Positions 1,025 to 35,852 of a DNA stretch of 64,000 nucleotides are shown in pieces (position 1 is the first letter of the stretch; every line of letters begins with the position of its first letter). The DNA comes from Symbiotaphrina buchneri (lineage: Eukaryota; Ascomycota; Symbiotaphrinales; Symbiotaphrinaceae). The stretch is from contig BCIG01000025.1 in assembly GCA_001599915.1 (NCBI GenBank), forward strand, positions 62,001 to 126,000, written 5' to 3'. A model generated the notes under the pieces. It was not told the origin of the DNA, did no database searches, and saw only the letters and a program-made list of their open reading frames with translations. The position numbers were made by a program, and so were the translations under genes.

Positions 1025-2651
1025 TTACGCCCTCGCCGCCTCAGCACTCTTCTTCTCCGAGTGCGTCTGCGCGGCGGGTGTCTCCAGGGGCAAATCCGGA
1101 ATCGCCAACCCAGGCGCCAGGACATCCGCAATCGTCTCATCGCTAAACTTCAAATCCTCCTCGATCGCCACATGGTCCGTAACCTTCCACCAGACCACCG
1201 GCGCCGCACACAGCAGCCCCCCCAGAAGCAGGCCCCAGCAACTGGCAAACATGGTCATGTATGGTTTCTCGAGCGCGTCAATGCGCCAGCTGACGACCGA
1301 GCCTGCGCTCTGGATGCCCTTGTAGAAACCCACGAAGAAGGCTGCTTTGCGCGTGTTGTTCGTCAGCGCGCCCATCAGCCAGTACACCGTCGTCTGCCAG
1401 CCGGCGTCGAAGAGCCCGTAGAAAATGTATAGGAACATGGGCCCCACGTAGCCGCTGCTCGACCAGTCCATGCTCCCGCCGGTGGTTTCCGGGCGCGAGG
1501 CGCGCGAGTACTGTTTCTGCCAGTCGTAGCCGCCGCCCCAGACGAACAGCCAGGCTATGGCGAGGCGGGCTTTGAGGGAGCGGCGAATCGGCGAGTCGAG
1601 CGCGTAGCCGAAGATGACGGCGCCGAAGACTTGGGCTAGCCAGTAGAGGACGCTGTTTAGGGACCGGGTCCGGATATTGAAGTTGGCCAGGTTGACGGCG
1701 TTGAATTGGTACGTGTAGAACCAGTTGGACGCGAAGAACATGGGCCATAAAGCCACGATGTAGAAGTCTGTGTGGATGCATTCCCACATGCCCAGGAATT
1801 CCGTCTTCCATGTGGGCCGCTTCATGACCACGGGCTTGGTCCCGTCCTCGCGGATGATTTTCTTGGGGTCGAGGAGGCAGCAGGCGAAGAGGGCGCCGAT
1901 GAACATCAGGATCATGAAGGCCGCGAAGGTGCCGTCCGTGGCGTTGCTGCTGCCGTTGTTGATGTTTTGTCCAAGAGGGATCTAAAATGGATCAGCGAGC
2001 TGTTTTCGAGCGGGGTTGTAACCGTGTTCTCCGAGCACTTACCAAAGAGCCAATAACAGAACCCAGGTTAAAGATCAACCAGAAGACAGAAATATATCTT
2101 CCCTTCTGATGCTCAGGCGGGTAGGACGTCATAACCGCACCCTGCGCCGTCCACAGCAGCGCCGCACACACACCCAACAAGGCACCGGCAAAGATACAAA
2201 AGCCCGTGTTCTGGGTATGGTTCCAGCACAGCAGACTCGCCGCATAAATAAAGTAGCCCAGGCCCCCAAACGACAGGGCCCAGCGCAGCCCAATGGCATT
2301 ACTAATGCTGCCCCCAAAAAAGCCAATGACAGAGAACGTCGAGTACAGCGCCACGTTGGTGTTGTCGGCCGTCTTGGTGTCGCTGATCCCGGCCCCGCCC
2401 AGCGACGTTAGCGCGTTGAACATCCCCGGGCACAGGAAACACGTGAAGGCCACGACCAGCAGTTGGCCCCGTGGAGAGGCGTAGTACGGCAGTTTGATGG
2501 GACCGAGCTTGAGAGACTTGTAGATCCAGCCGGTGGGGCGGGCGGGCACGCCGCCGGACTCTGCGAGGGCGGCATCGACGGCGGAGTCGTGCCCGTTGTG
2601 GGATTGGGTGGTGGGGTTGGAGGACGTCTTTTCGTCGCCGACGGTCGCCAT
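1025..2651 (-). CDS. UNC93-like MFS membrane protein
   Basis: Predicted multi-pass membrane protein of the UNC93 / DUF895 branch of the major facilitator superfamily; the substrate of the fungal members is not known. Two exons: 2043-2651 and 1025-1981, joined by a phase-0 intron (GTAAGT donor, TTAG acceptor), giving 521 aa. The ATG at 2651 is the first in frame; the frame is open further upstream only through a GTG. The N-terminal ~45 residues are polar and probably cytosolic, followed by hydrophobic helices such as LLVVAFTCFLCPGMFNAL, a glycine-rich stretch near GFFGGSISNAIGLRWAL, and the PPEHQKGRYISVFW loop, which is typical of the family. The C-terminal ~50 residues are polar. The next gene is about 1.7 kb away and divergently oriented, so there is no sign of a shared pathway. 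Confidence 0.88.
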
Positions 2652-4358
2652 GATGAAATTTGTGTCTTTCGATAAGGCTCCGGTCACAATACTGCTGAGG
2701 ACAGATTGAGGTGGTGAAGGGAAGATGAGGTGAGATGAGATGAAGGTGAGGGCGACGGGACTGCTGTTCAGGAGAAGGGAAAAGGCGGAGAAGGTTGGCG
2801 CTAATCCCGGTCGGTCAGGTGCTTATCGTCAATATCGTTTAGCTGAACCGTAGTAGCAAGCGGTTGGCTGCCGGCAAGGGTGTCGAGGAAGGGCTGGGGG
2901 CACACAAGCAAGAGCCGAGTACGATGAATAATAAGAATTATCCAGTCCCAGAGCTTGTCAGGTAGAGCAAGGAAGGTTTCGTAAAAAACAAGACCCTGTC
3001 CCGGATCTCCCTGGTGCTTAAATACCTAGCATATCACCAGGCAGAGCTGAGCGACACATGTGTATCAGTCAAACGTCGAATCCCTTATCTCTCCAAGGGT
3101 GCCTCAGCTCCAGCACCACTAAAAGCTACCGGTCGTTGCGATACACACAGCAATTGGTCTCGTGTGAGTGGTGCACACACCAGTCTCGGGCCATGTTCTC
3201 CGCAAAAAGCCAGCGACGCAACCTTCCTAAAGCACCCCCCCTGCTATCATCACCGCCAAGCCCCCTCCTAATCGACGGGTTTCATTGGACGTGGAAAGCT
3301 CCCTATCAGTGATTCAGGCCCCCAAGCCGAGGTGGTGCCAATCTTACCTGCCAGCAACGTTATCGAATCAGAGCTTAAGCATCTGCCGGACTTCCCGGCC
3401 TTCTGTGCAGCTGCGTGATTGGGTCTAGCGGCGGCGCTGCAAGGGATTTTGGGTGTGGTGGGTGCGAAGATACCTAGGTAGCGGCCGTACGGTTAGAGCG
3501 TTGTGTGTGGTGGGTGCGCTGCCAGGCGGGAATGGCTTGCAACGTTACATTTTCGCGCTGCGAGCGAGAAACGGTCGGGTTTAGATCAGCACAAGCAAAC
3601 TCAGGGTACAGTACTTCGTACGGTACTTCACTGATAAGTGGATAAGGGAGCCTATGAGCTTGCAACAACCTGGAAATTGATCGAGATGATTTGCAGCGAC
3701 GGAGTCAAACGTTGCATTTCTGCTAGATTGATTGGCTGGCTTCATCTTGACCCGTGATTGCCTGCTGAGCTGCCATGATGTGCGTGGGTGCTACGTACCA
3801 CCAGTTAAATATCTTAGCCAGTACAGTACCGCGTTCCGGTCCGGCCAGAAGCTCCGAACCTTTTGGCTTCTCTTCTCGCCTTCTAGAAGATCGACCGTCC
3901 AGCCACGCCCACAAACTGCGCTCTTGCATTTCAAGCCCACCGGAGAAATATGTCAAAGTTGTGAATAATACCGTAATCACTTTTCAAGTTTTGTAACAGT
4001 AACCTTGTGGTCGCAAGCACCTGACGACGCAGACCAGCGCATCATTTCACTTTTTGCCCCACCTAGCAGTAAGGTACTGTAGTAGTAACTTAACAAACGT
4101 CCGAGCAAAGCAGCGTCTGATAAACGGGTCCCCACCCATCCAAGCAGCTCCCGCCCGCCCTTATCTCCTACTGCCTACAAGCGCGCAACCACGTGAAATC
4201 CCGACGAGATAATTTTCCCTGCGCTGCGCTTCCTAAGGTCTCGATCTATTGCCTGCCTGCATCTAGATCCTCCACAACCTTATCGCACTGGCCGCATCGC
4301 CTCACATCACATCACCTCACAGCACTCCAAGCGCAGCCATTTGCGACACCACCTCACA
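2652..4358. other. Intergenic, promoter region of two divergent genes
   Basis: 1.7 kb between the divergent UNC93-like and deaminase genes. It should contain both promoters. I see no credible extra gene; the short open frames on both strands lack domains. Confidence 0.55.
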
Positions 4359-5778
4359 ATGCGCCTCATCATCCGCGACGACCCGTACGCCGCGTCGACG
4401 CACATAGCGGACTACATCGTCGGTTCGTCGCATCTCCCATCTCCCACCCTCAGAGTCCCCTTCAGCAATCACATGCGCCTCTGCATCAATACCTTGAAAA
4501 GAAAAGCGCTGCTGCGGTGGAGATACCTAGCTAACGATGCCCGCGCAGACCGCATCAACGCCTACAATCCCACGCCCGAGCGGCCCTTCGTGCTGGGTCT
4601 GCCCACGGGCAGCAGTCCCGAGATCATCTACAAGCTGCTGGTGCAGCGGTATAAAGCGGGCGACATCTCGTTTAAGAATGTCGTTACTTTCAACATGGTG
4701 CGCCGTCTCCCTTCTGCCCACATCCCTCTCCCGTCCCTCCAATCTCCCATCCCTTGCACATCCTCCCAGTCTCGACTCCCAGTCTCGACTCACGCCCCAC
4801 AGGACGAATACGTCGGCATCCCGCGCGAGCACCCAGAGAGCTACCACAGCTTCATGTACACGCACTTCTTCTCGCACGTCGACGTGTCCCCAGAAAACAT
4901 CCACATCCTGAACGGCAACGCGCCGGACCTAGACGCCGAATGCCAGGCGTACGAGGCGGCGATCAAAGCCGCTGGCGGCATCGAATTGTTCCTGGGTGGC
5001 ATTGGCCCCGACGGGCATATTGCGTTCAATGAGCCTGGTAGCAGTCTGGCGAGTCGCACGAGAGTCAAGACGCTGGCGTATGATACGATTATTGCGAATT
5101 CAAGGTTCTTTGGGAATGATCTAAGAAAGGTGCCGAAGATGGCGCTGACGGTGGGGGTGCAGACTGTTATGGAGGTATGCTTCTCCCTCCCTCCCTCGCT
5201 ACTCCCTCCCTGCCCCCTCATCCCTCCCTCCTCCCTCACAACTAACATCTCCCCCTCTTTCCGTCAAACAGGCGCGCGAAGTCGTAATCATAATCACAGG
5301 CGCACACAAATCTCTCGCACTACAGAAATGCATCGAAGGCGGCGTGAACCACATGTGGACGCTCTCTTCTCTACAACTCCACCCACACCTGATGATCGTC
5401 GTCGACGAAGACGCCACCCTCGAACTCCAAGTCAAAACCGTCAAGTACTTCAAGTCCATCGAGGCCGTCGCCGCGAGCCAAGGCTTGGGACAGGTCCTGC
5501 CTGCGACGCCGGTTAAGGATCGTGCGCCAAGACTGGACACTGCTGCAGCGGAAGCTGGGGCGGGTGCGGGAGCAGGGTCGCAGGGCAGGCTGGGGCAGAA
5601 CGTGGGGATCCCGGATTTGAGTCGTGCGGTGACGCCCCTGGGCGAGGGACTGGTTAATGGCGTTAAGGGAGAGGAGGGCGGATTGAAAGCCCCTGTTCCG
5701 GATCGCCCGGGCAGGTCGGTTACGCCCGAGTTCATCCCGGATCGCATGGCGAGTCGGCTGCGGGATGGGATTATGTGA
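4359..5778 (+). CDS. NAG1: Glucosamine-6-phosphate deaminase
   Basis: Converts glucosamine-6-phosphate to fructose-6-phosphate plus ammonia, the last step of GlcNAc/chitin catabolism in the cytosol. Four exons: 4359-4422, 4549-4697, 4803-5174 and 5272-5778; the phases are consistent and give 363 aa. The start MRLIIRDDP matches the family N-terminus. Seen motifs: GLPTGSSP (phosphate-binding loop), [18 protein letters not shown] with the catalytic Asp, and [17 protein letters not shown] with the Asp/His/Glu active-site residues, then TGAHKSLAL and [14 protein letters not shown]. Beyond the catalytic core is a low-complexity tail of about 90 aa, rich in Gly/Ala, with two related motifs, SRAVTP and [13 protein letters not shown] tail like this is absent from bacterial NagB. 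Intron donors 1 (GTTCGT) and 2 (GTGCGC) are weak but fixed by homology and phase. No neighbouring GlcNAc genes are seen. Confidence 0.95.
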
Positions 5779-6528: not shown

Positions 6529-8461
6529 ATGGCGGAAACAGATCCCCATAAGATGGAACGCCTGCGGCCTGTAGGTCCGTCTTCACCTCCCACTCCACCT
6601 CCCCTTGCCTACGTCTCAACAACTCAATCCCTCTCAATCCCTCTCCACCTCTTCAACCCCTCCAATCTGGCTGGAGCTGAGTCACTAACACCCCCCAGGA
6701 AAACTAGAAGCCTACAGCACCGCACGGCACCACCTAAACCTATACCAAAACGTCGGGCTCAGCGCCTACTACTCCACTTCCACCCCTCCCGTGCGTCTGC
6801 GCCCACTGATCTACCGCGCGCTCGCGGCCGTGATCGCGCGACACCCAGTTCTCAGCGCGATCCCCGTCGACGAGGATAAGCGCGAGGCGTATTTTGCGCG
6901 TCTGCCGCGTGTGGATCTTGATGGCGCGGTGAGCTTTGTGGAGAGGAGGAGGGCGTATGTGCCGAATCCCGAGCCAAATCCCGAGCCAGCCGCTGAGGGG
7001 AGTGGAGAGAGGGGAGAGCGGGATGTGGAGCTGGATGACTTGCTGGAAGCGCAGCATAACATCTCGTTCAAAGCGCGTTATGGCGAGCTGCCGTTCTGGC
7101 GCTTACTGATCCTCTACACGCCCGCCTCCTCCTCCTCCCCCTCCTCTACTCAGAACGGGGTTACGGAAAGCGTCAACGCCCCAGAGGAGCCAACCGCCTC
7201 GTCCTTCGCCGCGGCATTCATCTTCCACCACGCGCTAGGCGACGGCGGTTCCGGGCTCGCCTTCCACCGGACCTTCTCCACCGCACTCCATTCCGCCTCC
7301 CAGCACACATCCAGCACTCCCGCACCCTCCCTCATTACTCCGCCCAGCACGCCTCTCCTCCCGCCCCTCGAAGAACTGCACCCGCTCCCCCTCTCCCCGC
7401 TCTTCGTGCTCAAAGCGCTCTACAACGACCTCTTCCCGCGCTCCAAGCGGGGCACCTGGACGGGCGCGCCCATCACGGACGGCTCTGCGCCCCACACGCG
7501 TTTCCGCAGTCTAGTTACCCCGCGCAGCACCACGCGCGCGCTGGTACACGCGTGTCGCCGCCATAAAGCGACGGTCACGGCCGCGGCGCAGGTCCTTGTT
7601 GCGGCGGCGCTGTTCGAGGCGCTGGATGCCAGGGAGGCTAAGAGGCTGGTGGTGCAGAGTAATATCTCGCTCCGACGATGGCTGGATCCAGCCAAGGTGG
7701 ACGATGATGAGATTGGGGCGTGGGTCGCGGCGTATGATGATGTTTATGTGAGGGATGTGCTCCTACCATCATCTCAGCAGAAACAGAAGCAGGAGCCGCA
7801 GCAGCAGCAGAAGCAGCAAAATGGTACTGCTGCCCCTGCCCCTTCCTCGAACCAGGCAGCAGCAGCAGCAGCAGCAGCGTTCTGGGCGGAAACCCAGCGC
7901 AGCCGTCGCAAGATCGAGAAGGTGCTGGCGTCGCAGGGCCGCAATCAGTCCAGCGCGCTGCTGCGCTGGGTCGATGACCTGCATGCGTACTTTCTCAAGA
8001 AAACGAGTACGCCCCGTGAACATTCTTTCGAGATCAGCAATATTGGGGTCATGAGGCTGGGTCCTGCTTTGCCTGCTTCCGCTGCTGTGGCTGCTGCTGC
8101 GGCGGTGAAGGTGGCGAAGCAGCCGGATGCCCTGGACAGCACAGGCAGCGCTGGCAGCACAGCCAGCACCACAGTACCAGCCTCAACAGGCAAGAAGGCA
8201 GAAGCTGGTCCCCAGCCGCACCAGCCACCGCAGCCACCGCAGCTCGAACAAGCCCAGCAGCCAGCATGGACGCTCGGCAGGTGCCTCTTTAGCCAGAGCG
8301 TGTCTGTCAACGGGGCGGCGGTCGAGGTCGAGTTGGTTACGGGCCTGGACGGATGTCTGGTCTGGGGATTCACGTGGCAGCAGGGAGTCGTGCCGGATGA
8401 GGTCATGCAGAAAGTTATTCTGAGTGTCGGCAGGAGGGTGCGGGAGGTTGTTAGGGAGTAG
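6529..8461 (+). CDS. Alcohol acetyltransferase family protein (PF07247)
   Basis: Predicted CoA-dependent O- or N-acyltransferase of the AATase family (relatives: yeast Atf1/Atf2, Sli1), part of the chloramphenicol-acetyltransferase / NRPS-condensation superfamily. Two exons, 6529-6574 and 6699-8461 (phase-1 intron), give 602 aa. The junction restores RPVGKLEAYSTARHHL, the family's N-terminal signature. The catalytic HHxxxDG motif is present as FHHALGDGGSG, about 220 residues in. Low-complexity inserts interrupt the fold: a Gln/Lys-rich run followed by an alanine run (about 7770-7880) and a Ser/Thr/Gln/Pro-rich stretch (about 8120-8260). These probably form surface loops. The gene ends 393 nt from the stop of the convergent NRPS gene; together with the transporter beyond it this suggests acylation of a peptide-like product. 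Substrate unknown. Confidence 0.87.
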
Positions 8462-8854: not shown

Positions 8855-11800
8855 CTATTCCCATGTCGTCCCTAGATCTCTCCCTCTCCGTACCTCCCTC
8901 ACCGCCCCCAGCACAATCCCCTCCATCGCCCCCACAAACTCCCCCAGCAACTCCTCCAAAAACCCCTGCTCCGTCGCGCCCGCAACATCAACCTGCAGCC
9001 TCCCATCCTGCGCCTGCATAACATACAGATTCGTATACCTCGGCTCAACCACCCTCCGCACTTGCTTCTCTCGAAAAACCTCTCTCGCCCTCGCCTCCTC
9101 CCCCGCGTCCCGCTCGGCCAGCTGGATGTTGACGAAGGTATCGAACGGCAGTGGCGGAGCGGAGAGTTGCCGGGCGAGAGCAAGGGTGCGCGCGTGTGTG
9201 AACTTGCTGATTTGTGCGAGGGAGGAGGCGAGGGTGCGGGCTGTGCCTGCAAGGGCGGTGTTGCTGCTGCCCGACGACCAGGAGGAATGAGAGCTGGAGG
9301 GCAGAGGGGAAGGGAGCGAGACTTTCAAACTGGCCATGCAGAAGGCCGGGCCGTCAATCTGATCTACCCCTGCGACAGGCGCATCACGATTCCCAAATAC
9401 CGCCGCGAACGTGACCGTCTGCTGCCCCGTATGGCGCGCCAACGTCGCCGCCCACGCCGTATACACGACTGCGGCAATGGTCAGGCCGCGCTTCGCAGCG
9501 GTGTGGAACAGGCCCATATCCAAGAACCTTGACGCGCGCTGGCTCGTGCTCGTGCGCGGCGGGTTGAGCATCGTGCGCGGCGCATCGGCCAGATATTCTT
9601 TCCAGAACGCGGCCGCGGGCTCAGGGTCGGTTTCAGAGACCCAGCGCACGTAGTGCTTGAAGCGAGGGCGCGTAGGGAGCGAGAGGTCGTGGTAGGCCCG
9701 CGCGACGTCCTGGTACAGGAAGCGCTGCGACCAGAAGTCGAAGAGCGCGTGGTGCATGGAGATGACGAGCGCGGCGCCGGCGTCGGCGACGGTGATGCGC
9801 CACGGGAGGACGCCCCGAAGAAGCTCGTCCTGGAGGTCGGTGTCGAGGAAGGAGGATAGTGGGAGGGTGCTTGAGGTCCAGGGGAGAGGCATGTCCGAGC
9901 GGACGACCTGCAGTAAGCCGGCGCGCTTGTCGGAGATGAAGGTTGTGCGGAGGATGTCGTGATGCTGGAAGACGGTCTCGAATGCGTCGTGGAGCTTGCT
10001 GATGTCCAGTCCGTCGAGGCGCCAGATCCGCTGGTATAAGTACCCTTTCTGCCCGGCTTTGGAGGCACCGAGCATGAAAGCCTGCATTGGGAGGACGGGA
10101 TACGCGTCGATGACGCCCGGTTGCTGCTTGAACATTTCACGGGTGGAAGGCTCTTTGATCAGAGAAAAGGCCTGCACGTCATGGTCCATCGACTCGGTCG
10201 TAGTCTGACTGGCCTTCGCCGCGACTGCCACAGCTGCTAGATCCCCGGCACTGAGGATGCCGGCCAAGTCCAGCGCAATGCCCACTTTCCTCAGCTCGGC
10301 GAGAACACGGAGCGCTTGGATGGACGTGCCGCCAAGGTTAGTGAACGAGTCAGTCCGACTGATTGATTCTTTTTCCAGGCCCAGAACGTCGGCCCAGACC
10401 TTCTGGATATGCTCTTCCAGGCCTTGAGACACGGGAGCATGGTTAGAAGATTTCTTGACGAGGTCTAGAAGACCGTCTCGGCCGAGCTTCTCTGCCTTCT
10501 CCCGCAGTGAGCGCATGTCCGTCTTGCTATTAGCATTAAGCGGGATATCATCCAGCTCCATCCAGTAGCTTGGGACCATGTACGATGGAAGGATGCCGCG
10601 CAGATGCTCTCGTAGGGGCTCCACACCGGCATGGAAGTAGCCTTCCTCCTTCAGACCGGGGTGTAGAGCCACGCCGGCGACCAGCGTCGTGTCCCCTGAG
10701 ATCGTAGCACCGAATACAGCGCAGAAACGGACAACGGGGCACTTGCTCAGCGCGGTGGTTACTTCTTCCGGTGCAACCCTCTGACCGCCAACCTTGACTC
10801 GGAAATCCGTACGGCCGACGATGTCGAAAGTGCCGTCCACATGCTGCACAGCCATGTCGCCGGTCCTCAGCATAGCCCCCTCACCAAAAGGGTTCTTGAT
10901 GAACACCCTTGCAGTTTCTTCCGGACGGTTCAGATAACCACTCGCAAGCTGGGGTCCTGCTAGACACAGTTCCCCTTCCGTCTCAGGGGGCATCACCTCG
11001 ATCGAATCCGGCCGCAGCACAAACGCAACCGTTGTATCCATCGGCCTACCTACAAACGTCGCCCGGCCACCTCTCCGCAGACGCGTTCCAAAATTCAAAT
11101 GGATACACTCACTGAGCCCATAAAAATTCCACAACTCCACCTCCTCCGCCCACCGCTCAATCGTGCTCGCATGCACTCGCTCGCCCACCATGATGACCTT
11201 TCTCACCCCAGGCACGTCGCGCGGGTCCAGCAGTGCCAGCGCTGATGGTGTCATGCGCAGCCCGTCGACACCCATCTCGTTAATAATTTCTGGCAACCGC
11301 GTCGTCAGCGTGCGCTTGCTGGCTAGGCACACGCATCCGCCGTGGATAATGGTGCCCCAGATGGCGCGCTGGGCCGCGGAGGAATTGGGCGCAAAGAACA
11401 GTAGCCAGCGCGTAGTATTGGAGAGTCGCACACTTTGCATGCCGCTGCTGGCAGCGAGGTGCGGGATAATGACGCCCTTTGGCAAGCTGGTTGAGCCGGA
11501 GGTGTAAACAATATAGGCCGTGTCGTTGTAGTGGGCGAGGCTCAGGGCTGAAGCCAAGGTGGCTTGCTCCTCTTGAGCGGTCCGACTAGATAAGAACCTT
11601 TGGATGTTCAGGCCGGTTGTGAATTGGTGAGCTGTCTCATCATCTGTAAGGACGAATTCAGCCTCGACATCGGCGATGATGAATTGATGTCGCTCCGCTG
11701 GATATTCAGGATCCAGAACCACATAGGCTGCACCGGCTCTCATCACAGCCAGCATCGAAGCAATCATGACGACCGAACGTTCCATGCAAATTGGAACAAT

Positions 11801-12007
11801 CGTGCGTTTCCCAAAGGGAATTAATCGTCGAACATCTTCTGCCAGATCACCAAGCTCTTTCAGTGACAGTGGTTTATCATTCTCGAACTGAACAGCCACC
11901 TGATCCGGATGACTATCCAGTCTATCCTGGAGAAGATCAGGTATAGTGCGCTTGCACGGAGCTTTTACCGGAGCCATGACCGGCGAGACGCAGCTGAGCG
12001 AGCCCAT
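8855..12007 (-). CDS. Single-module NRPS, domain order A-T-C
   Basis: One uninterrupted exon of 1050 aa. Adenylation domain about 25-500: A3 YTSGSTSLPKG (168-178), A5 NFYGLSE (294-300), A7 GELCLAG and RTGD, A8 GRTDFRVKVGGQRVAPEE, A10 NANSKTD with the catalytic Lys. Carrier domain about 525-600 with LGGTS and the phosphopantetheine Ser near 562. Condensation domain about 620-1050. Two core positions are unusual. At A4 the stretch FFAPNSSAAQ replaces the usual FDxS, so the Asp that binds the alpha-amino group looks lost (Ser by my alignment), suggesting a substrate other than a standard alpha-amino acid. The condensation motif reads HHALFDF (752-758) instead of HHxxxDG. Ending in C with no TE/R domain means the loaded unit is probably passed to an external nucleophile, as in A-T-C enzymes such as Aspergillus FmqC (from memory). 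The ATG at 12007 is the first in frame. Confidence 0.93.
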   Translation of the reverse strand: MGSLSCVSPVMAPVKAPCKRTIPDLLQDRLDSHPDQVAVQFENDKPLSLKELGDLAEDVRRLIPFGKRTIVPICMERSVVMIASMLAVMRAGAAYVVLDPEYPAERHQFIIADVEAEFVLTDDETAHQFTTGLNIQRFLSSRTAQEEQATLASALSLAHYNDTAYIVYTSGSTSLPKGVIIPHLAASSGMQSVRLSNTTRWLLFFAPNSSAAQRAIWGTIIHGGCVCLASKRTLTTRLPEIINEMGVDGLRMTPSALALLDPRDVPGVRKVIMVGERVHASTIERWAEEVELWNFYGLSECIHLNFGTRLRRGGRATFVGRPMDTTVAFVLRPDSIEVMPPETEGELCLAGPQLASGYLNRPEETARVFIKNPFGEGAMLRTGDMAVQHVDGTFDIVGRTDFRVKVGGQRVAPEEVTTALSKCPVVRFCAVFGATISGDTTLVAGVALHPGLKEEGYFHAGVEPLREHLRGILPSYMVPSYWMELDDIPLNANSKTDMRSLREKAEKLGRDGLLDLVKKSSNHAPVSQGLEEHIQKVWADVLGLEKESISRTDSFTNLGGTSIQALRVLAELRKVGIALDLAGILSAGDLAAVAVAAKASQTTTESMDHDVQAFSLIKEPSTREMFKQQPGVIDAYPVLPMQAFMLGASKAGQKGYLYQRIWRLDGLDISKLHDAFETVFQHHDILRTTFISDKRAGLLQVVRSDMPLPWTSSTLPLSSFLDTDLQDELLRGVLPWRITVADAGAALVISMHHALFDFWSQRFLYQDVARAYHDLSLPTRPRFKHYVRWVSETDPEPAAAFWKEYLADAPRTMLNPPRTSTSQRASRFLDMGLFHTAAKRGLTIAAVVYTAWAATLARHTGQQTVTFAAVFGNRDAPVAGVDQIDGPAFCMASLKVSLPSPLPSSSHSSWSSGSSNTALAGTARTLASSLAQISKFTHARTLALARQLSAPPLPFDTFVNIQLAERDAGEEARAREVFREKQVRRVVEPRYTNLYVMQAQDGRLQVDVAGATEQGFLEELLGEFVGAMEGIVLGAVREVRRGRDLGTTWE

Positions 12008-13223
12008 GATGCAATGTAAAGAGCAATTGAGTGATAGTCAGCCTGTACCAGATCCAACAGGCCAAACTATCGCAGAAACCTAACATCTCCATCTCGAATA
12101 TGCCGCCGTCTCCAGTCATTACTTTATATCCCGATATCTCGGCTTGGCTTTGATCCGAGTAATCCTTGGCCAGACGTCGTGTTGCGGCTTGGCTAGAGTC
12201 GTGGTGAGTCGGCAGTTGGCTAGAGATGGCCTGGGGAGGGATCACCCTTGCCAAGAGACCTGAGTAGATGCAAACTACGCCCAATCACAGCCGCACCGCG
12301 TGTAATTCCTTGCCGCAACGAGTAGGTTCCCCGAGACTAGTCAGACATAAATAAGCTTAACTTTATTTATTTTCTGGATCCAGAGCATGATCGGAAAGGG
12401 GCAGGCAGGTATCCAATGGGACCCCAGGCATGACATCTTCTGGAAGATGTCGGCATGTCGGGGTCTTTGGATGCCGACGGATGCAGACTTCTGTGTGATG
12501 GTTATTGTGTCGGATGCAACCTCGGCCTCGATTCTTGCTTAATAATGCTTGTTCCGAAGTTCTGCTTTCTAGATGCATGTGACTTGGCAGAAATATATGA
12601 ATAGATGGACCCGAGATCTCGGATTGGCACTGCTCTGTTATGGCTGGCCTCATCAAGCCGCGTGTGTCACGGTTTAATGCATTGCAACCTTGCAGAGTGA
12701 CACAACGATCCCGAACCACGCGATATCGACGGGCCGGACCATTTTCAATGCGGATGAAATGGAAAATAGTACCTCTGTTTCCAATATTCCCGAAAATGTC
12801 CCCAGACGCAGACCTCGCCGTCGCTGGGTTCTTGCGGCCCGAAAAGGGCGCGGGAGCCGACGGGGCGTTAGCCATCACCAGGCCAGAGGGGCCCGAACTG
12901 TCTTGTCACAGAGAAAATATGCCTAGAGAGCATCTCGAAAACCGCTTGGACACAAAAGCCGGCTGCACAGTACATGTGGACCGAAGCTGGGTATATTAAC
13001 TGCAATAGAATCGGACTATTAATCTAGCCTCAAGCAGGTGCGCCGTCATGAAGATCGTCATACCAGAGAGAAATCAGGGCCTCTCCATATGTACATGCAC
13101 ACAAATTATGCTGTACGGAAATATCTTGCCCCTCAGCCACATCACATCTACAACCCCAACTTGACCGCTTCCCTCAAATCCTCACGAATCAACATCTTCA
13201 ACCACCGTCGGATGATAACCCAT
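12008..13223. other. Intergenic, NRPS promoter
   Basis: Region upstream of the NRPS gene and downstream of the MFS gene. It holds the NRPS promoter and a small perfect palindrome, CATCTTCTGGAAGATG, around 12428-12446. I see no gene in it. Confidence 0.5.
12131..12142. promoter_or_regulatory. CCG-N6-CGG everted triplets upstream of NRPS
   Basis: CCGATATCTCGG, about 125 nt upstream of the NRPS start codon. Everted CCG/CGG triplets with fixed spacing are bound by Zn2Cys6 dimers, so this is a candidate pathway-specific operator. Only its position and form support it. Confidence 0.3.
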
Positions 13224-15093
13224 TCAAACAGCCTTCTCTCCCACCGGCTGCACCTGTGCTTGCACGCTAGTCTCCTTGGTCTGGCCGGACACCCCATCAC
13301 CAGCCTGGGGCGCCGTCTCAACCTGCGCGGCCACGTCGGCGATCTTGCAGTGGTAGTCCTTGAACTTCTTGGCAGGCACTTTGGCCTCGAAGATCTCATC
13401 GATCTCCTCGAGTGAGCGGCCTTTGAGCTCCGGCAGGAAGAAATAGAAGAAGAGGAGGGTCAGAAAGCAGGATCCGGACCAGATGTAGCCGTATTTGGCA
13501 CCCTGTTACAGGAACATATATGTTAGTGGATATAAACTCCTCATTATTTGGACAGACGGGAGCGGGAAAAGGGGAGAGGGGACAGGAGAAGAGCATACCC
13601 AGTTCAGCTCCGTCGGATTAATAAAATACGGGGAGCAAAAGCTCACCAGCCACGCGCCCACAAACCCCAGCGCCGTACCCGTCCCCACCGTCCACGTCCT
13701 CAGCCTCGAGCTGACGAGCTCCGTGCCGACCGTATACTGCATGCATCCAATCGTGCCGTTGTAGAAAAATTTGAAGATGCACGTAAATGCCACAAGGGCC
13801 TGGCCGGCCACGACGCCGCCGGGCTGCGCGCTGTACGCGATGGCGCCGGCGAGCTGGCACAAGCAGCAGGTGGCGGCGCCGAACATGAGCTGCTTGCGCC
13901 GGCCGACGTATTTCTGCATGCAGACCAGCCCGATGTTGCACCCCACGAACCCGAGACACGCGGACATGATGCTGTATTGGAAGTTCTTGGTGATGCCGGC
14001 GATGCCGAAGAAGTAGGTTAGGTAGCTACGTTAACGTTAGAGGGATTGGCAGAGACATGCCGGATGTGATGGCGTACCTGATCAGGAACCAATACCCGGT
14101 CGAGGTCTGGCAGAGCAACATCCCATAGCAGATGAGTGTCCGGCGTAAGTCCGCGCCTGTCAACCCCGTCTATTAGCACAATGTTATCTGGAAGTGGAAA
14201 CTCGGCCATACCGCGGAACATATCCAAATATCCAACAGTCCTCGCAAGGGCCTGTTCCTCTTCCGCTCCCCGGACAATCTCCGTCCACTCTGCCTCCAGC
14301 GTTTCGGGTGCGCAGCTGCCACCACGGATCCGTTCAAATGCCTTGCGTGCCTCCGTCGCCTTCTTATGATGCAGCAGCCACCTCGGGCTCTCAGGGATAA
14401 AAATCAACGCAATGGACAAGAATGTCGGAATAATATAATGGCATGCCATGGGGATCTGATACGAGGCCTTTCCCAGATGGACCTTCGTATAATTGTCGAT
14501 GATAGACCCCAAGATGGTGCCGATATTGATCCAGAAGCCGAACAGCGACACGAGCACGCCGCGGAAATGCGGCGGCGCCAGCTCCGCGTTGTACACGGTC
14601 GCGAAGGTCGCGAAGAAGCCGTTGGCGAAGCCCATGAAGATCCGTCCTGTGTACAGGGTGGCCCGTGTTGTGGCCCCGATTTGTAGCGCGGCCCCGATGG
14701 CGTTGAAGATGCATGCTGCCCATAGCCCGGCGCGTCGCCCGAAGTAGGCCCCGAAGACACCGGCGAAGATGGAGGAGAGGAAGGAGCCTAGGGTGACGAG
14801 AGAGGTGATGAGTTGCTGCACGGTGGACTGTGTGATGATTTTGTCAGCATGATCAATTCGAATGGCTGTGCTTTCCTCCCTCTTTCTGGAATAAGGGGAC
14901 TTACGTCAATGCTATAGTGGATCCGTGCTGTAGGATCATAATATCCGAAGACCTTCAAGAACCCCGGCATGGCTTGCAGGCCGCCCACGGCGCTGCTATC
15001 GAGGCCGATCTGCATACATGCCGTCGCAATCATGCAGCAGAACATCAGACACTTGCGATTCGCCCACAAGGACGTCTTATTGATAGGAGCCAT
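13224..15093 (-). CDS. MFS sugar transporter
   Basis: Predicted 12-TM proton symporter of the sugar-porter family in the plasma membrane. Five exons on the minus strand: 14905-15093, 14212-14827, 14078-14156, 13599-14025 and 13224-13502; all phases fit and give 529 aa. Seen motifs: FGRRAGLW, RIFMGFANGFFATFATVYNAELAP with the following RG (the sugar-porter R-G segment), PESPRWLL, YVGRRKQLMFG in the second half, and PELKGRSLEEIDEIFE near the C-terminus. The third exon is only 79 nt and is easily missed: reading through the 55-nt intron before it replaces GADLRRTLICYG by a wrong peptide. The C-tail of about 45 residues is polar. The gene lies upstream of the NRPS on the same strand, so it may export or import a compound of that locus, but the family mostly imports sugars. 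Confidence 0.9.
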
Positions 15094-25715: not shown

Positions 25716-26240
25716 CTAAACTCTTGCCTTCTGAGGAATCGTCTTATACTTCGGATGGCGTCCCAGAACCGCGTCAACCACATTCTCTTGACTCTCTTTG
25801 ACAAGCAGCTCTAGCCGCTCATCTCTAACCCGTTGCCATGACTTTGACCGCGGTATCCTTTCATACTTCGGAAACCTCTTCAAAAACCTCGTCAACCACT
25901 GCTGACCCAGCGGCCCCGCCTTTTCCCTTTCCTCCTCCGTCAGGCCCTTTCTGTAAATCCCCTCCGCCGCTCTCTTCACATGCCTTTTCTCAAGCACCAA
26001 CCCAATCTCCTCCGCCAGATCGAGAAAAGCACACAGCGCCGCCTCCTGCGCTTCAGAGAGGCGCTTGTTGGTCGCCGCCCGAGCGCTTTTGGATTGCCGC
26101 CCTTTGAAACGCGCGCGGAGCCGGGTGGCCGGGAGGTTTTTGTCACGCGCTAAAGCTGCGATGTTGGGTTTTGGGTTGTCCCTGACGGATTCTAGGGCTT
26201 CAGAGATGCGTGATTCGATGGAGGCGTAGGATTCGGGCAT
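25716..26240 (-). CDS. Lone CENP-B-type HTH protein (transposase-derived)
   Basis: 174-aa single-exon frame starting at MPESYASIES; the frame upstream is open only through non-ATG codons. Residues about 5-60 look like the N-terminal psq-type helix-turn-helix (ESVRDNPKPNIAALARDKN then TRLRARFKGR). Residues about 65-140 look like the CENP-B/Tc5 HTH (LSEAQEAALCAFLDLAEEIG and PLGQQWLTRFLKRFP). These two modules form the DNA-binding half of pogo/Tigger/Fot1 transposases. The DDE catalytic half is absent: the frame ends shortly after KYKTIPQKARV. Free-standing proteins of this type are common in filamentous fungi. It may be an exapted DNA-binding protein or the 5' remnant of a dead element. I saw no terminal inverted repeats around it. 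Confidence 0.72.
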   Translation of the reverse strand: MPESYASIESRISEALESVRDNPKPNIAALARDKNLPATRLRARFKGRQSKSARAATNKRLSEAQEAALCAFLDLAEEIGLVLEKRHVKRAAEGIYRKGLTEEEREKAGPLGQQWLTRFLKRFPKYERIPRSKSWQRVRDERLELLVKESQENVVDAVLGRHPKYKTIPQKARV

Positions 26241-27584
26241 GGTTTGTGGAGATAGGTTTGTGGGGGAGGTAAGGATCGAGGTGGTTACGTGGAGCTGGAA
26301 GGTTGCGTTGAGCAAGGGCCCTTGGCGTAGGTTAGGTTAGGGAAGTGCAGCGAGACTGCCATATATTTGCTCTGGTATGATTTGGGAGGGGAATTAGCAC
26401 TTTTCCACCTGATTTATTTGCTCGATTTCTTCCGAAAATGCCATAATAACAGAGGCTAATTCGGGCCACTTAATGGGGCATCTTGGTTCTTGCTCCAGCC
26501 ATATGCACAGCGGGAGAGCTTTTCCTGAAGGAACGAGATTCCCCTTCGGCATCTACGATTCTACACCGTAGCAGGGGTATTTATTGTATGTTACGAGTTT
26601 GAGATTCCCCTTCGGCATCTACGGCTCTACTGTACGAAGGACTACCTCCATCTCTTTCAGGTACGCTCTTTCTTCGACGGCCTTCCAGCCTCCAGACAAG
26701 GGCTGGCCAAGTCATGTGAACAGAGAACACACTTGGCGCAGGGCTCGTTGTCGGCTTGGCCAGAATCTTGGCGCATGTAAATGGCTGAAGTCAGCATCAT
26801 TCCAAGAAACACTCGACTGTCTGACCTGAAACCCCCAAGAAAACGTCCAAGACCTTCTTTTTCCCTCTCCGAAGTCCACGCCGCCCAGACGTCCAATTAA
26901 CGTTGGCACCATCCGACTCCGGTAAACTCCCCGTTCGGACCCACTCACGCCATTCGCTCGATTTCCCTCGCGATCCTTCGCGAACAATCTCCCGTATCGG
27001 GATGACCACCAATGGCGTAGGTGGCTCTTACGCCCAGCTGGCTGGGCACACCCTTCGATCTTCATCAGCTGTTCGATTCTCGGCCTTGGCCTCGGGTTCC
27101 CCTTGCACATATGCGGCTGTCAGCTGTTGGCATTACCTGATGCGCTTGGTGTCTCTCACGCGGAGCCGGCTGCTGCGCCAATAATGTTCGTACGCAGCAG
27201 CAAGCAGCAGCGAACCAGCGTGCGAGGAACCCGTCCCAAGCCCGCAGAGTAACCCCACAGTCACGGTATTCGGTCATGAGGCCACGATCCTGGATGGGGT
27301 CGCGCCCAGAGTGGAACGTTTCACGCATGTGTGGAGAAGGTTCTTGGAACTGCCGCTAGAGCCCCGTGGAAGGATGTCTGGGGCTGGATGAGGGCGAGTA
27401 CTTTTACTCGCCCACCCGCCCTTTTGTTATCCCCCTCCTTCCCTCTTTTCCGTAAGAGTCAACATTCATCCAACGCTTCGATAACAATACACCTATATCT
27501 GCGTCGCACCTCCTCTGTTCTGGAGCTTGTCTCGTTGCCTCTGCCTTCCAGAACACAGGAGTTGAACTGCACCAGCTAGCAACC
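26241..27584. other. Intergenic, divergent promoters
   Basis: 1.3 kb upstream of both the HTH gene and the hexose transporter. It contains a 23-bp direct repeat (26535-26557 and 26601-26623). No gene is called. Confidence 0.5.
26535..26623. repeat. 23-bp perfect direct repeat pair
   Basis: The same 23 bases (GAGATTCCCC then TTCGGCATCTACG) occur at 26535-26557 and 26601-26623, 66 bp apart, each followed by a similar short run (ATTCTAC versus GCTCTAC). It looks like a local duplication about 300-370 bp upstream of the HTH gene. Confidence 0.85.
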
Positions 27585-31257: not shown

Positions 31258-31946
31258 GCTGGGCGATGTTGCAGCGTTATTTGCAGCGCTGGTGAGATAT
31301 GTAATGGAGATGCAGCTTCAAGTTCTCAATAGCCTTTTGTGGTTTTCATAAAGAAAAGAAGCTGACGGAGAGCATCGGCAGGGCAGGTGCGAAGGAAGTG
31401 GAAGTCCATGGACTTAAGGAACCCTTGTACCTCCGTTCGTATAGCCGACGTCATCGCTCTCCACCTCCGCACCCCACCGACTGGTGTGACAGGATGTCTT
31501 CGAAGACTGCATATTTTCGGTTCTTTACTCCTTCCTCCGACAGCGCTTCCTTGCTCGTGGGACCGCTTTATGATTCAAGGAAAGACCCATCACTGAGGTG
31601 GCCATGGTTCGATGTTGACAGTTTACTAGTTGGATTTCGGTCGCGCCGCGACCTTTTCAAATCCGGTCTTCATCACATCTGACAAGCTAGGACAGTAGGA
31701 TCCAGCAACGAGCTTTTCCAAATGCAGTGGTACATAATCATACAGCCGCCATATTCGCTGCCTGTTGAGGACAGTTCACCAGTGACTTACGGACGATTAA
31801 CATGATGTCGAGGACGATATGTTTCAAGACTAAGATGCACGCCTAAGGTAGTCGGTTACGCCGTCCCCGATCAGGAAGGTGATAGGACTCAACGGCCAGG
31901 CATCTCTCATTCCTCGTTCCTGTCTCACTCCCAACTCCAAGTCAAG
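31258..31946. other. Intergenic, divergent promoters
   Basis: 0.7 kb between divergent oxidoreductase and beta-lactamase-like genes. No gene seen. Confidence 0.5.
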
Positions 31947-33882
31947 ATGCTGTCCCTATCGGCATTCATCCTGGCATTCTCCATCGCCGGAGCATATGCC
32001 GAGTGCTACCGTCCCGGTCCCGCCTTCCCCAAACCCACATTGAAAGCCAATGACCCCGCACTCACGGCGCTGTTTTACAACCTGACCTCAGCCGTCAACG
32101 GCCTATTGTCCTCTGGCAGCACCACGAATCCAAAATGGGAGACCAACTCTACATCCTTTTCCATCCAGCTGACGTCTGCTGATGAAGCGCTGTGGTCGCA
32201 CCATCACATTGCTCCAGTGCTGGGTAATTACAGTGAAGCCGAGCCTGGGTCTGTGACGGGGGACACGGCGTTTCGGATTGCTAGTATTTCAAAGACCTTC
32301 ACTGTGTATGCTTTGCTCGTAGAAGGAGTCGATCTGAAATCGCCGATTACGCACTATATCCCTGAGTTGCTTGATGGGAACGATGGTGGTGTGGATTGGG
32401 AAGAGATAAGCCTGGAAAGTCTTGCAAGCCAGCTGAGCGGGATCCCAAGAGAGTGTGAGCTTCTCTCACAATGATAGATGACGGTGGATCAGCTAATGCC
32501 GGAATAGATGGCCAACAAGACCTCACAGTTGACCGAGAACTGCTCGAGGATCCACTCGCTGCAGGCCTGCCTCCTGTATCCGACGATGACATTCCCTTGT
32601 GCGGCAAGACGCGGGATGACCAAGTTTGCACCAAAGAAGGTAAATCCTCGTTCCCCCTGCCTTTGACAGCCACTGAGCGTTAGCAGTGTATCTTCGGGGT
32701 CTCAAAACCAGATCTCCAGTTTACGCTCCGAACCATATCTCCACCTACTCCAATGTGGCGTTCACCCTGCTCGGCTTAGCGCTGCAGAACGTCACCGGAA
32801 AATCATACAGTGAAGCTATCAATCACAACGTTCTGAAGCCTCTACAGATGGCTGATACTGGGGTCAACACACCGCCGGATTCCGCGGGTATCATACCTGC
32901 CGGTGCGAACGATTGGGCTACTCAACTCGGCGTCAACAATCCGTATGTCATCCCACCGAACTATTAATAAGGTTGTAACACATGTGGCTAATACTCGAGT
33001 AGGTCCGGAGGCATCTATTCCACAACCAACGACCTGGTACTCTACATGCGCTCACTCCTCAACCCCCAACTCCTCTCCACCGCACAGCTCAACGCCTGGC
33101 TGAAACCGCACTCCTACGGGCCGGGCCTATACTCCGCCTACGGCATGCCATGGGAGACCTCCCGCCGCACCGATCTGTCCTCCGACGGCCGCGCGATCGA
33201 CATCTTCACCAAAGGCGGGAGTCTTGCGGGCTACTACTCGACCATAATGGTGATCCCCGAGTTCAACATCGGCCTTGTGGTCCTCGTTGCGGGCGATTTC
33301 GCTGCAAAGCCAGCCTTGCAGGACGCTCTTGTGGCGCGTATTGTTTCCGGTATTGAGAAGATTGTCAGAGAAGATACCCGGAAACGCTATGCGGGCGTGT
33401 ACGAAGCGAGCGGGCTCAACTCGTCCATCACGCTAGAAGTCGACGACTTCGGATCGGGGATGCGTATCGCGCGGTGGATATCCAACGGCACGGACTTCCT
33501 GCCCGTGTACGGCAAGCTTCGGAACAACCCCGACAGCCGGCTCAAAGACGACGGGCGAGACTGGATGGAGGGATACCAGGCGCGGCTGTTCCCGGCTGAT
33601 TTGAAAAAGGGGGAGCATGGGGAAGCGTGGCGGCTGCAGATGTGGAAAGAGGATTCTGATCCGGAGGATCAGAGTATGTGCATGAATGATGTCGATAGCT
33701 TGATGTATGGCAATAGGGCGCTGCAGGAGTTTGTGTTTAGGATTGCGGAGGGCGGACGGGTGCAGGCGCTGGAGTTGCCGGCTTTTAGGGTGGTGTTGAA
33801 GAAGCGGATGCAGACAAGTGGCAAGAGTCCCATGGGAAGGCTTTGGGATGGTGGGATGCAGGTCCTGGGCTTTCAAGGCTGA
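31947..33882 (+). CDS. Secreted serine beta-lactamase-like / S12 family enzyme
   Basis: Predicted secreted hydrolase of the class C beta-lactamase / D-Ala-D-Ala peptidase / esterase fold. Four exons: 31947-32454, 32508-32639, 32687-32942 and 33003-33882 (phases 1, 1, 2); 591 aa. N-terminal signal peptide MLSLSAFILAFSIAGAYA. Catalytic elements in order: SISK (SxxK, nucleophile Ser and Lys), YSN in TYSNVAF (YxN), and KGG in FTKGGSLAGYY (KTG-like box). The conserved GLPPVSDDDIPLCG loop of fungal members is recovered only with exon 2 read in the frame set by phase 1; the other open frame across exon 2 gives an unrelated peptide. Multiple N-x-S/T sites fit secretion. The C-terminal ~200 residues form the usual extra domain. 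Substrate unknown: lactonase, esterase or peptidase activities all occur in this family. Confidence 0.88.
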
Positions 33883-34122: not shown

Positions 34123-35289
34123 TCAAATCAGGCCCGGCAGGAATCTCCACCTGACCCTACTCACATACTCATCCCACTCCCCTCCCCACTCCCTCTTCAT
34201 CATCCGCTCCTCCTCCCCCGTCCTCCTCTTCACCGCCCACCCCGTCCCCAGCGCCCACGCCGCCCTCGCCAACCCATCCACCCACCCGCTCCTCCCAGCA
34301 TCCTCACTTCTCCAACACCCCAGCACCACGCCATCACTCCTACAAAAGATCCAAAACGCGCTTACACCCGCTATATACACGGCCGTATACGACGGGTGTC
34401 TAACCCACGCATACAAACCCCCCGTCATCAATTTCCTTGGTCGCGCAAGCTGGAACGTAAAGTCCGCGCCGAGCTGGCGGTATGCGAGCAGCCGCGCGCA
34501 GGCGCTGAGGTAGAGTATTGCGAGTGGGATGAGTGTGGAGGGAGAATAGGTTAGGAGCGAGGGGGAGATGTTGCGGGGGTGGGGACAGAGCCGTGAGGGT
34601 GCTGGAAAGGGTTGGGAAGAGGAGGAGGAGGAGGAGGAGGAGGAGGAGGAGGAGGAGTAGATTAGGAGGGAGTGGTAGATNNNNNNNNNNNNNNNNNNNN
34701 NNNNNNNNNNNNNNNNNNNNNNNNNNNNNNNNNNNNNNNNNNNNNNNNNNNNNNNNNNNNNNNNNNNNNNNNNNNNNNNNCCCGTCATCAATTTCCTTGG
34801 TCGCGCAAGCTGGAACGTAAAGTCCGCGCCGAGCTGGCGGTATGCGAGCAGCCGCGCGCAGGCGCTGAGGTAGAGCATTTCGGGCGGGATGGCCGTGGAC
34901 GCAAAATAGGTTAGGAGCGAGGGGGAGATGTTGCGGGGGTGGGGACAGAGCCGTGAGGGTGCTGGGGAGGAGGAGGAGGAGGAGGAGGAGGAGGAGGAGG
35001 AGGAGTAGGAGGAGGAGTAGATTAGGAGGGAGTGGTAGATCGGTAAAGTGAGGGAGAGCAGAGGGATGAATTGCAACAGGATCAGCGAGTGGATCTGCCC
35101 TGCGCGGCCGGGCGGGAAGACCGTGTCCTGCACCACGACGATGGAGCCGGGCCGGGAGGCGCTCACTGGCGCTGCTGGTGCTGGCCGTGGTGGCGCGGGG
35201 TTCGGCGGCCGGACGATCTTGAAGAGCAGTGGCCCGGTGATGAAGAAGGCGAGTGAGAGGAGTGTGTGGGCAGCTCCGGTAGTGGTCAT
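34123..35289 (-). CDS. ICMT/PEMT-like methyltransferase, spanning assembly gap
   Basis: Membrane protein of the isoprenylcysteine carboxyl-methyltransferase family (PF04140-like). The C-terminal part shows the family's SAM-binding signature: LMTGGLYAWVRHPSYTAVY, then EEERMMKREWGGEWDEYV and a short hydrophobic end. The N-terminal part starts MTTTGAAHTLL at 35289 with hydrophobic helices. The middle is not reliable: 100 N at 34681-34780 are flanked by two 260-nt near-copies of the same coding segment, each with a long serine run from a (GGA)n microsatellite, so the predicted protein contains that segment twice. The real gene most likely has one copy, or there are two paralogous copies collapsed here. 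The serine run could also lie in an unrecognised intron. Function beyond the family is unknown. Confidence 0.72.
   Translation of the reverse strand: MTTTGAAHTLLSLAFFITGPLLFKIVRPPNPAPPRPAPAAPVSASRPGSIVVVQDTVFPPGRAGQIHSLILLQFIPLLSLTLPIYHSLLIYSSSYSSSSSSSSSSSSSPAPSRLCPHPRNISPSLLTYFASTAIPPEMLYLSACARLLAYRQLGADFTFQLARPRKLMTXXXXXXXXXXXXXXXXXXXXXXXXXXXXXXXXXXIYHSLLIYSSSSSSSSSSSSSSQPFPAPSRLCPHPRNISPSLLTYSPSTLIPLAILYLSACARLLAYRQLGADFTFQLARPRKLMTGGLYAWVRHPSYTAVYIAGVSAFWIFCRSDGVVLGCWRSEDAGRSGWVDGLARAAWALGTGWAVKRRTGEEERMMKREWGGEWDEYVSRVRWRFLPGLI
34421..34680. repeat. 260-nt near-duplicate, left of the gap
   Basis: This segment is repeated at 34781-35040 on the other side of the N run, at exactly the same length. 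The first ~94 nt are identical; a cluster of about ten substitutions follows within ~36 nt (34515-34550); then identity resumes up to a GGA microsatellite whose length and phase differ. Probably unmerged contig ends from two alleles or two paralogues. Confidence 0.9.
34681..34780. other. Assembly gap, 100 N
   Basis: Exactly 100 N, the usual placeholder for a scaffold join of unknown size, inside the ICMT-like gene. Confidence 0.98.
34781..35040. repeat. 260-nt near-duplicate, right of the gap
   Basis: Partner of 34421-34680. On the minus strand it encodes FASTAIPPEMLYLSA where the left copy encodes SPSTLIPLAILYLSA. The GGA run here is interrupted by GTAGGA units. Confidence 0.9.
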
Positions 35290-35852
35290 GATGTTGGGCT
35301 TGCTTGCGTTTGTTGTTGCTGTTTTTTCTTTGGTGAGGAAATGCAGATGTTGTCAGCTCCGGTGGAAAAGGCTGTTCGATGGTGGCTTGGCGCTGTGTTG
35401 GCGCTGTGGGATGGGTCTTCTTCAAGAGGAACAATCTTTCAACGGTGATGTGTCCCGCTGTTTCTTGCAGATATGCCGCTGGTTGCGCGGGATGTGAGGT
35501 TGAATTCCTTCCTTTGCAATGGAGTGCGAGTTGGAGAGTCGACTTTGACGGCCTTATGTTCGTTCCTTCGTGCCCTTCATGTCAGAAGCGAGAAAACAGG
35601 GCCCACTTTCAAGTAAGCACTGAGCCTAAAGACGGTAATATTGCGCGCCAGGTCGATAAATCGGTATGCCTGACTCACTCTTAGCCTTTTATATAAATCG
35701 CAAAGTGCGTACTTGTACGAAACTTATGTGCCTGAGGTCTTGCACTGGCTTACCCTAATTCCAAAGCCAACTTCATGCAAGCTGTACATCTAGAAGACAG
35801 TATATGTATGCTGGATAGCCCAAATAAGTCGAGCATGCTGTCGGCTCCCCAG
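35290..35852. other. Intergenic
   Basis: 0.56 kb between the start of the ICMT-like gene and the end of the next gene on the same strand; ICMT promoter and the other gene's 3' flank. Nothing recognised. Confidence 0.45.

Follow-up and report, generated by a model that had tools for sequence, protein, structure and literature searches.

The window analysed here, a 64,000 nt stretch of Symbiotaphrina buchneri DNA, corresponds to positions 62001-126000 of contig C25 in a genome of 23.4 Mb in 82 contigs. It contains a gene for a single-module non-ribosomal peptide synthetase (NRPS) with one adenylation (A), one thiolation (T) and one condensation (C) domain. The gene and its domains are located as follows.

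8855..12007, minus strand: A-T-C single-module NRPS gene, complete, 1050 aa (open reading frame and Pfam)
10931..11929, minus strand: adenylation core, AMP-binding (Pfam PF00501, E 8.9e-53)
10523..10762, minus strand: adenylation C-terminal subdomain (Pfam PF13193, E 7.8e-7)
10232..10408, minus strand: thiolation domain, PP-binding (Pfam PF00550, E 2.7e-9)
8855..10144, minus strand: condensation domain as modelled, 429 residues (Pfam PF00668; AlphaFold2 mean pLDDT 87.5)

The gene is a single unbroken frame of 1050 codons (3153 bp) that starts with an ATG at 12007. The chance of 1050 open codons at the local composition is about 6e-16 and the GC3 of the gene is 0.70. The Pfam matches run in the order AMP-binding, AMP-binding_C, PP-binding and Condensation, all above cut-off; the TIGR01733 score (295.5) is below the curated cut-off of 317.4. 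A reading made from the sequence alone (the sequence-only reading) had given the module order as A-T-C with nothing after the C domain, and the Pfam order, the full-length frame and the lack of NRPS domains in the adjoining ORFs all bear this out. It had also named a missing downstream exon as an alternative, but none of the 19 minus-strand ORFs of at least 70 aa between 4530 and 8669 matched an NRPS domain and neither did the two upstream ORFs (12366-12905 and 11940-12284). In the genome search, in which only the best candidates were scored, contig C25 matched AMP-binding, PP-binding and Condensation once each, and every one of these matches fell in the A-T-C gene. A missing exon or a second module is therefore unsupported.

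A Kyte-Doolittle scan of the protein gave two weak segments (70-88 and 575-593) that lie within the A and T domains, and no convincing membrane segment. The full-length structure model had a pTM of 0.54 and does not settle the packing of the domains, and structure comparison returned many tied NRPS entries, which leave both the subtype of the C domain and the class of acid unseparated. Judged from its consensus, the alignment behind the full-length model is dominated by epimerisation-type rows beyond the T domain; the C domain was therefore modelled separately. This model is continuous through residue 423 of 429.

The genes that surround the A-T-C gene in the window are listed below.

1992-2822: MFS/UNC-93-type transporter
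4197-5516: glucosamine-6-phosphate isomerase-like gene
6689..8461, plus strand: alcohol-acetyltransferase-like gene, convergent with the A-T-C gene and a possible partner (Pfam PF07247, E 1.4e-7)
13227-14905: sugar transporter, right flank
38450-39707, minus strand: type III polyketide synthase (PKS), 26 kb from the A-T-C gene
41222-42214, plus strand: P450, 29 kb from the A-T-C gene

No biosynthetic cluster is evident around the A-T-C gene. We scanned 50 of the 76 window ORFs of at least 150 aa, a search that could miss short exons, and those less than 25 kb from the gene had no PKS, terpene cyclase or P450 match. To the left of the window there is an NDT80/PhoG-type regulator and a hexokinase (L015:1893-7603), the only matches among the 10 of 19 ORFs scanned in the adjoining 8 kb. 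Together with window positions 1992-5516 this flank looks like an N-acetylglucosamine catabolic cluster and not a biosynthetic one, as the row of regulator, hexokinase, transporter and isomerase fits what we take to be the make-up of such clusters in fungi. The alcohol-acetyltransferase-like gene encodes an HHALGDG motif and long low-complexity stretches. Further to the right, the type III PKS, the P450 and a methyltransferase-like ORF (34123-35352) possibly form a separate small cluster. An ORF at 25716-26336 (minus strand) has a Tc5 transposase DNA-binding domain and is likely to be a transposon remnant, and two ORFs at 31806-33882 (plus strand) match halves of the PF00144 beta-lactamase family and probably belong, as exons, to a single gene for a serine hydrolase.

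The residues of the A domain that bear on its substrate were placed by alignment.

11369..11392, minus strand: A4 region APNSSAAQ, with Ser210 at the Asp235 position
11366..11368, minus strand: Arg214, pocket position 239
11255..11257, minus strand: Arg251, pocket position 278
11108..11122, minus strand: A5 motif YGLSE, with the conserved Pro replaced by Leu298
11099..11101, minus strand: His303, pocket position 330

A scan of genome contigs for relatives gave 72 bacterial loci with 23-31% identity, which serve as a comparison set only; no match was found among viral contigs. The bacterial set is biased, because its members were retrieved by two patterns, LP[ED]I[IM][NR]EM and HHAL[FY]D[FG]W. 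It yielded 191 A-domain hits, of which 127 were counted once 64 partial or weak ones had been removed.

Ser210 aligns with Asp235 of GrsA in three alignments (against LgrA, the multimodular NRPS of the same genome and the 127 bacterial A domains). The comparison domains have Asp at this position in 126 cases, Ile in one and Ser in none, and the A4 stretch is gap-free in 126 of them. The sequence-only reading had reported an A4 core (FFAPNSSAAQ) without the Asp, and this holds. It had allowed that the Asp might lie at a shifted position. There is no Asp or Glu at all between residues 163 and 239, so that a shift is excluded.

Asp at position 235, the mark of A domains for alpha-amino acids, is thus replaced here by Ser. 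In a review of A domains, this Asp is described as replaced by Ala or Gly in hydroxy-acid domains, by Ile in keto-acid domains (with the A5 Pro changed to Met in StsA) and by Asn in aryl-acid domains, where the A5 motif of DhbE is QQVxFMAEGL, and as still used in beta-amino-acid domains (PMC11253843). Set against the StsA type, with a hydrophobic residue at 235 and the A5 Pro replaced, our protein has Ser at 235 and Leu in A5. Its A5 region reads NFYGLSE, without the DhbE-type signature; with Ser and not Asn at 235, a DhbE-type aryl-acid A domain was rejected on these features. The A5 Pro is absent in 43 of the 127 comparison domains (34 have Gln), and 42 of these 43 retain the Asp, so the A5 change alone is weak evidence; both the Asp and the Pro are missing in only one of the 127. 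The lack of Asp235 thus favours the proposal of a non-standard acid (aryl, beta-amino or hydroxy), and the Leu in A5 adds a little to this, but the three classes do not fare equally, because beta-amino-acid domains keep the Asp and the DhbE signature is absent.

The pocket columns of the A domain read S-A-R-R-I-V-F-H-L. None of the 127 comparison domains has two basic pocket residues together and seven have one. Four of these seven carry it at position 278, three with the string DLPRVGHVG and one with DLTKVGHVG, which we take to be of the aspartate code type (DLTKVGHIGK presumably being a code for Asp). As aligned, the pocket combines two Arg and one His and lacks acidic residues, which suggests that the substrate would carry a further negative charge. 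The pocket string SARRIVFHLK occurred in none of the nine papers that a literature search listed. Code-based prediction has been called not possible in fungi (PMC10192304).

An ordinary A-T-C enzyme for alpha-amino acids of the AneB/TqaB type, with a drifted pocket, has to be considered here. TqaB and FmqC are alanine A-T-C enzymes. Amino acids are likewise the substrates of most A-T-C enzymes that the AneB paper names (PMC10720950), and McyG has Val at 235 and yet activates Phe (PMC11253843). McyG takes Phe without the Asp, so the class of substrate here is not proven. A drifted pocket is nevertheless unlikely, given the complete lack of acidic residues over 163-239 and the fact that Ser at 235 and the pair of basic residues are each absent from all 127 comparison domains. 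The pocket is better read as one for a substrate that lacks an alpha-amino group, though this is not certain.

The T and C domains contain three regions of interest.

10319..10336, minus strand: LGGTSI, with Ser562 as the predicted phosphopantetheine site (motif)
9728..9757, minus strand: C3 motif MHHALFDFWS, with His752, His753, Asp757 and Phe758 (alignment)
9329..9352, minus strand: C5 region, with GPAFCMAS where GxxxNTLP is usual (alignment)

The change of Gly to Phe that had been read from HHALFDF is plain in the C3 motif (HHALFDFWS). The C-domain alignment has 47 rows, made up of the window protein, four of the five pieces from the same genome (L021 was omitted) and 42 of 48 bacterial pieces. 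Gly stands at the position of Phe758 in 46 of 46 comparison rows, or in 46 of 47 once L021 (HHALYDAVS, with Ala) is counted, most of the 46 having been fetched by a pattern that favours HHAL[FY]D[FG]W. In a looser count a regular expression matched 69 of 76 C hits, and Gly was found in 63 of the 69, some of the other six looking spurious. The C5 columns hold Asn in 43 of 46 rows and Pro in 45 of 46; our protein has CMAS followed by a Ser-rich insert. This altered C5 motif could impair catalysis.

The ordinary LCL type has HHxxxDGxS and a short T1-C1 linker with a median of 59-60. Here DF replaces DG, and the T1-C1 spacing is 72 aa by our own count, compared with 78 in two modules of the multimodular NRPS from the same genome. 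Published medians are 59 for fungal LCL domains and 85-86 for the FUM14 and CT types, although the motif borders used may differ from ours (PMC10212144). The fungal motif is printed as QHxxxDxxS for AneB, where the Gly site is left open and was not mutated in that study (PMC10720950), and as SHxxxDxx(T/S) for LCL-A domains, again with the Gly-site residue left open (PMC10212144). Since the published fungal motifs leave this position open, the change to Phe says little about the acceptor, and loss of the Gly is weak evidence for the acceptor type. His753 and Asp757, in turn, match H794 and D798 of AneB, residues of a conjugating-type C domain.

With A4, A5, C3 and C5 all changed, the gene might be a decayed or inactive enzyme retained as an open frame. 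We regard this as quite improbable, for the 1050 open codons and the GC3 of 0.70 speak against decay, the domains give confident models, and the ATP-binding, phosphopantetheine and His/Asp residues are all kept.

The protein thus has one A, one T and one C domain with the expected active-site residues Ser562, His753 and Asp757, and several known systems can be compared with it. NPS6/SidD siderophore synthetases have an A-T-C module followed by dA-T-C (PMC2823734, PMC10192304); no second module was found at the A-T-C gene and this type was rejected. Closer in architecture are AneB, which joins proline to an alcohol in vitro, and ThmA, which has been assigned tryptophan (PMC10720950). Like these and FlvI, our protein is a stand-alone A-T-C enzyme with the His/Asp of the C motif and the Ser of HxxxDxxS; unlike it, they activate amino acids and belong to terpene pathways, and AneB has QHxxxDxxS. 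The cited texts name two A-T-C enzymes for non-amino acids. One is the hancockiamide A-T-C, cited for N-cinnamoylation (PMC10720950), which has the same domain order as our protein and, by citation only, adds a non-amino acid. The other is AstA of Aspergillus oryzae, of the astellolide pathway, which esterifies benzoate or 4-hydroxybenzoate to a sesquiterpene in vitro (PMC5024094). With AstA, AneB, ThmA and the cinnamoylating enzyme published, what the sequence-only reading inferred holds in outline and is a known kind of enzyme.

Our leading reading, to which we give a probability of about 0.6, is that the gene encodes a complete stand-alone acyl-conjugating NRPS that would join an acid without a free alpha-amino group to a free small molecule. 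The A domain, judged from Ser210 and Leu298, would activate such a carboxylic acid, which would then be loaded onto Ser562 of the T domain. The C domain, through His753 and Asp757, would let a hydroxyl or amine of the free small molecule attack the thioester, and an ester or amide would be released. Transfer to an external amine or alcohol, as the sequence-only reading had it, agrees with the stand-alone A-T-C architecture and with the AneB, ThmA and AstA precedents; the step itself, like the activity of the enzyme, the class of acid and the nucleophile, is one that we infer.

A special case of this reading would be an enzyme like AstA that forms an ester between an alcohol and benzoate or a related aryl acid. 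By description, AstA shares the domain order, takes a non-amino acid and a free alcohol, and has an acyltransferase gene in its cluster, AstG, which acetylates (PMC5024094); an acyltransferase-like gene also adjoins the A-T-C gene. Also by description only, AstA differs in its length of 1338 aa and in its location in a terpene cluster (PMC5024094). Our A domain has no DhbE-type A5 signature and has Ser instead of Asn at 235 (a register shift that would place Asn208 there is possible), and two pocket Arg are unexpected for benzoate. An AstA-like enzyme is thus possible but on the unlikely side.

From Arg214, Arg251 and His303, an acid with a further negative group would be the favoured substrate of the conjugating enzyme. 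Stated in full, this would be a soluble single-module NRPS in which a di- or tricarboxylic acid, or a keto or hydroxy diacid (for example a malate- or tricarballylate-like acid), is held by these three residues without Asp235 and joined as an ester or amide to a free small molecule; we put this forward tentatively and consider it unlikely as it stands. Such a diacid-loading enzyme has chemical precedents in FUM14 and polymalate synthetase. FUM14 is a T-C protein not known to have an A domain and differs from ours in being bidomain, with two domains only. Its C domain forms an ester in fumonisin (PMC5024094, PMC10212144). The polymalate synthetase of Aureobasidium has A-like, T and C-like domains that act on a hydroxy-diacid, and a gene of 5049 bp with six membrane segments is reported for it (PMC9210645, PMC11905612). 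Our protein, encoded by 3153 bp and with no convincing membrane segment, has neither this length nor the six segments, and is therefore not of the polymalate synthetase family.

In the rest of the genome, at least eight Condensation matches were found, one in the A-T-C gene and seven in one region of contig C11. That region (C11:94372-109486, minus strand; L010 and L017-L024) encodes a multimodular NRPS that is SidC-like by eye, with several C domains, xGxDSL-type carrier motifs and one C motif in which Gly is replaced by Ala. Ketoacyl synthase gave at least seven matches on at least five contigs. A 968-aa ORF on contig C27 (L011:4277-7183), with a carrier match in the genome search, by eye combines an adenylating domain with a carrier and with a hydrolase of thioesterase-like type. 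The confinement of the Condensation matches, among those listed, to the A-T-C gene and the C11 region would suit transfer of the acyl group in trans to the multimodular NRPS or another carrier, but with that NRPS on another contig and a C domain of its own in the A-T-C protein we consider transfer in trans highly improbable.

A stand-alone A-T-C enzyme determines the acid with which a finished small molecule is conjugated, and such conjugating enzymes have been described before. To the sequence-only reading the present analysis adds the change of the A5 Pro to Leu, the Arg pair and the His of the pocket, and the CMAS sequence in C5. If the reading with an anionic acid is true, the presence of two Arg in a pocket free of acidic residues would offer a rule, open to testing, by which fungal A domains for anionic acids could be recognised, and activation of an acid and FUM14-like ester formation would be combined in one chain. 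As the C domain has a continuous fold in spite of its changed C3 and C5 motifs, it may also help to show which parts of the C-domain signature are needed for a free acceptor.
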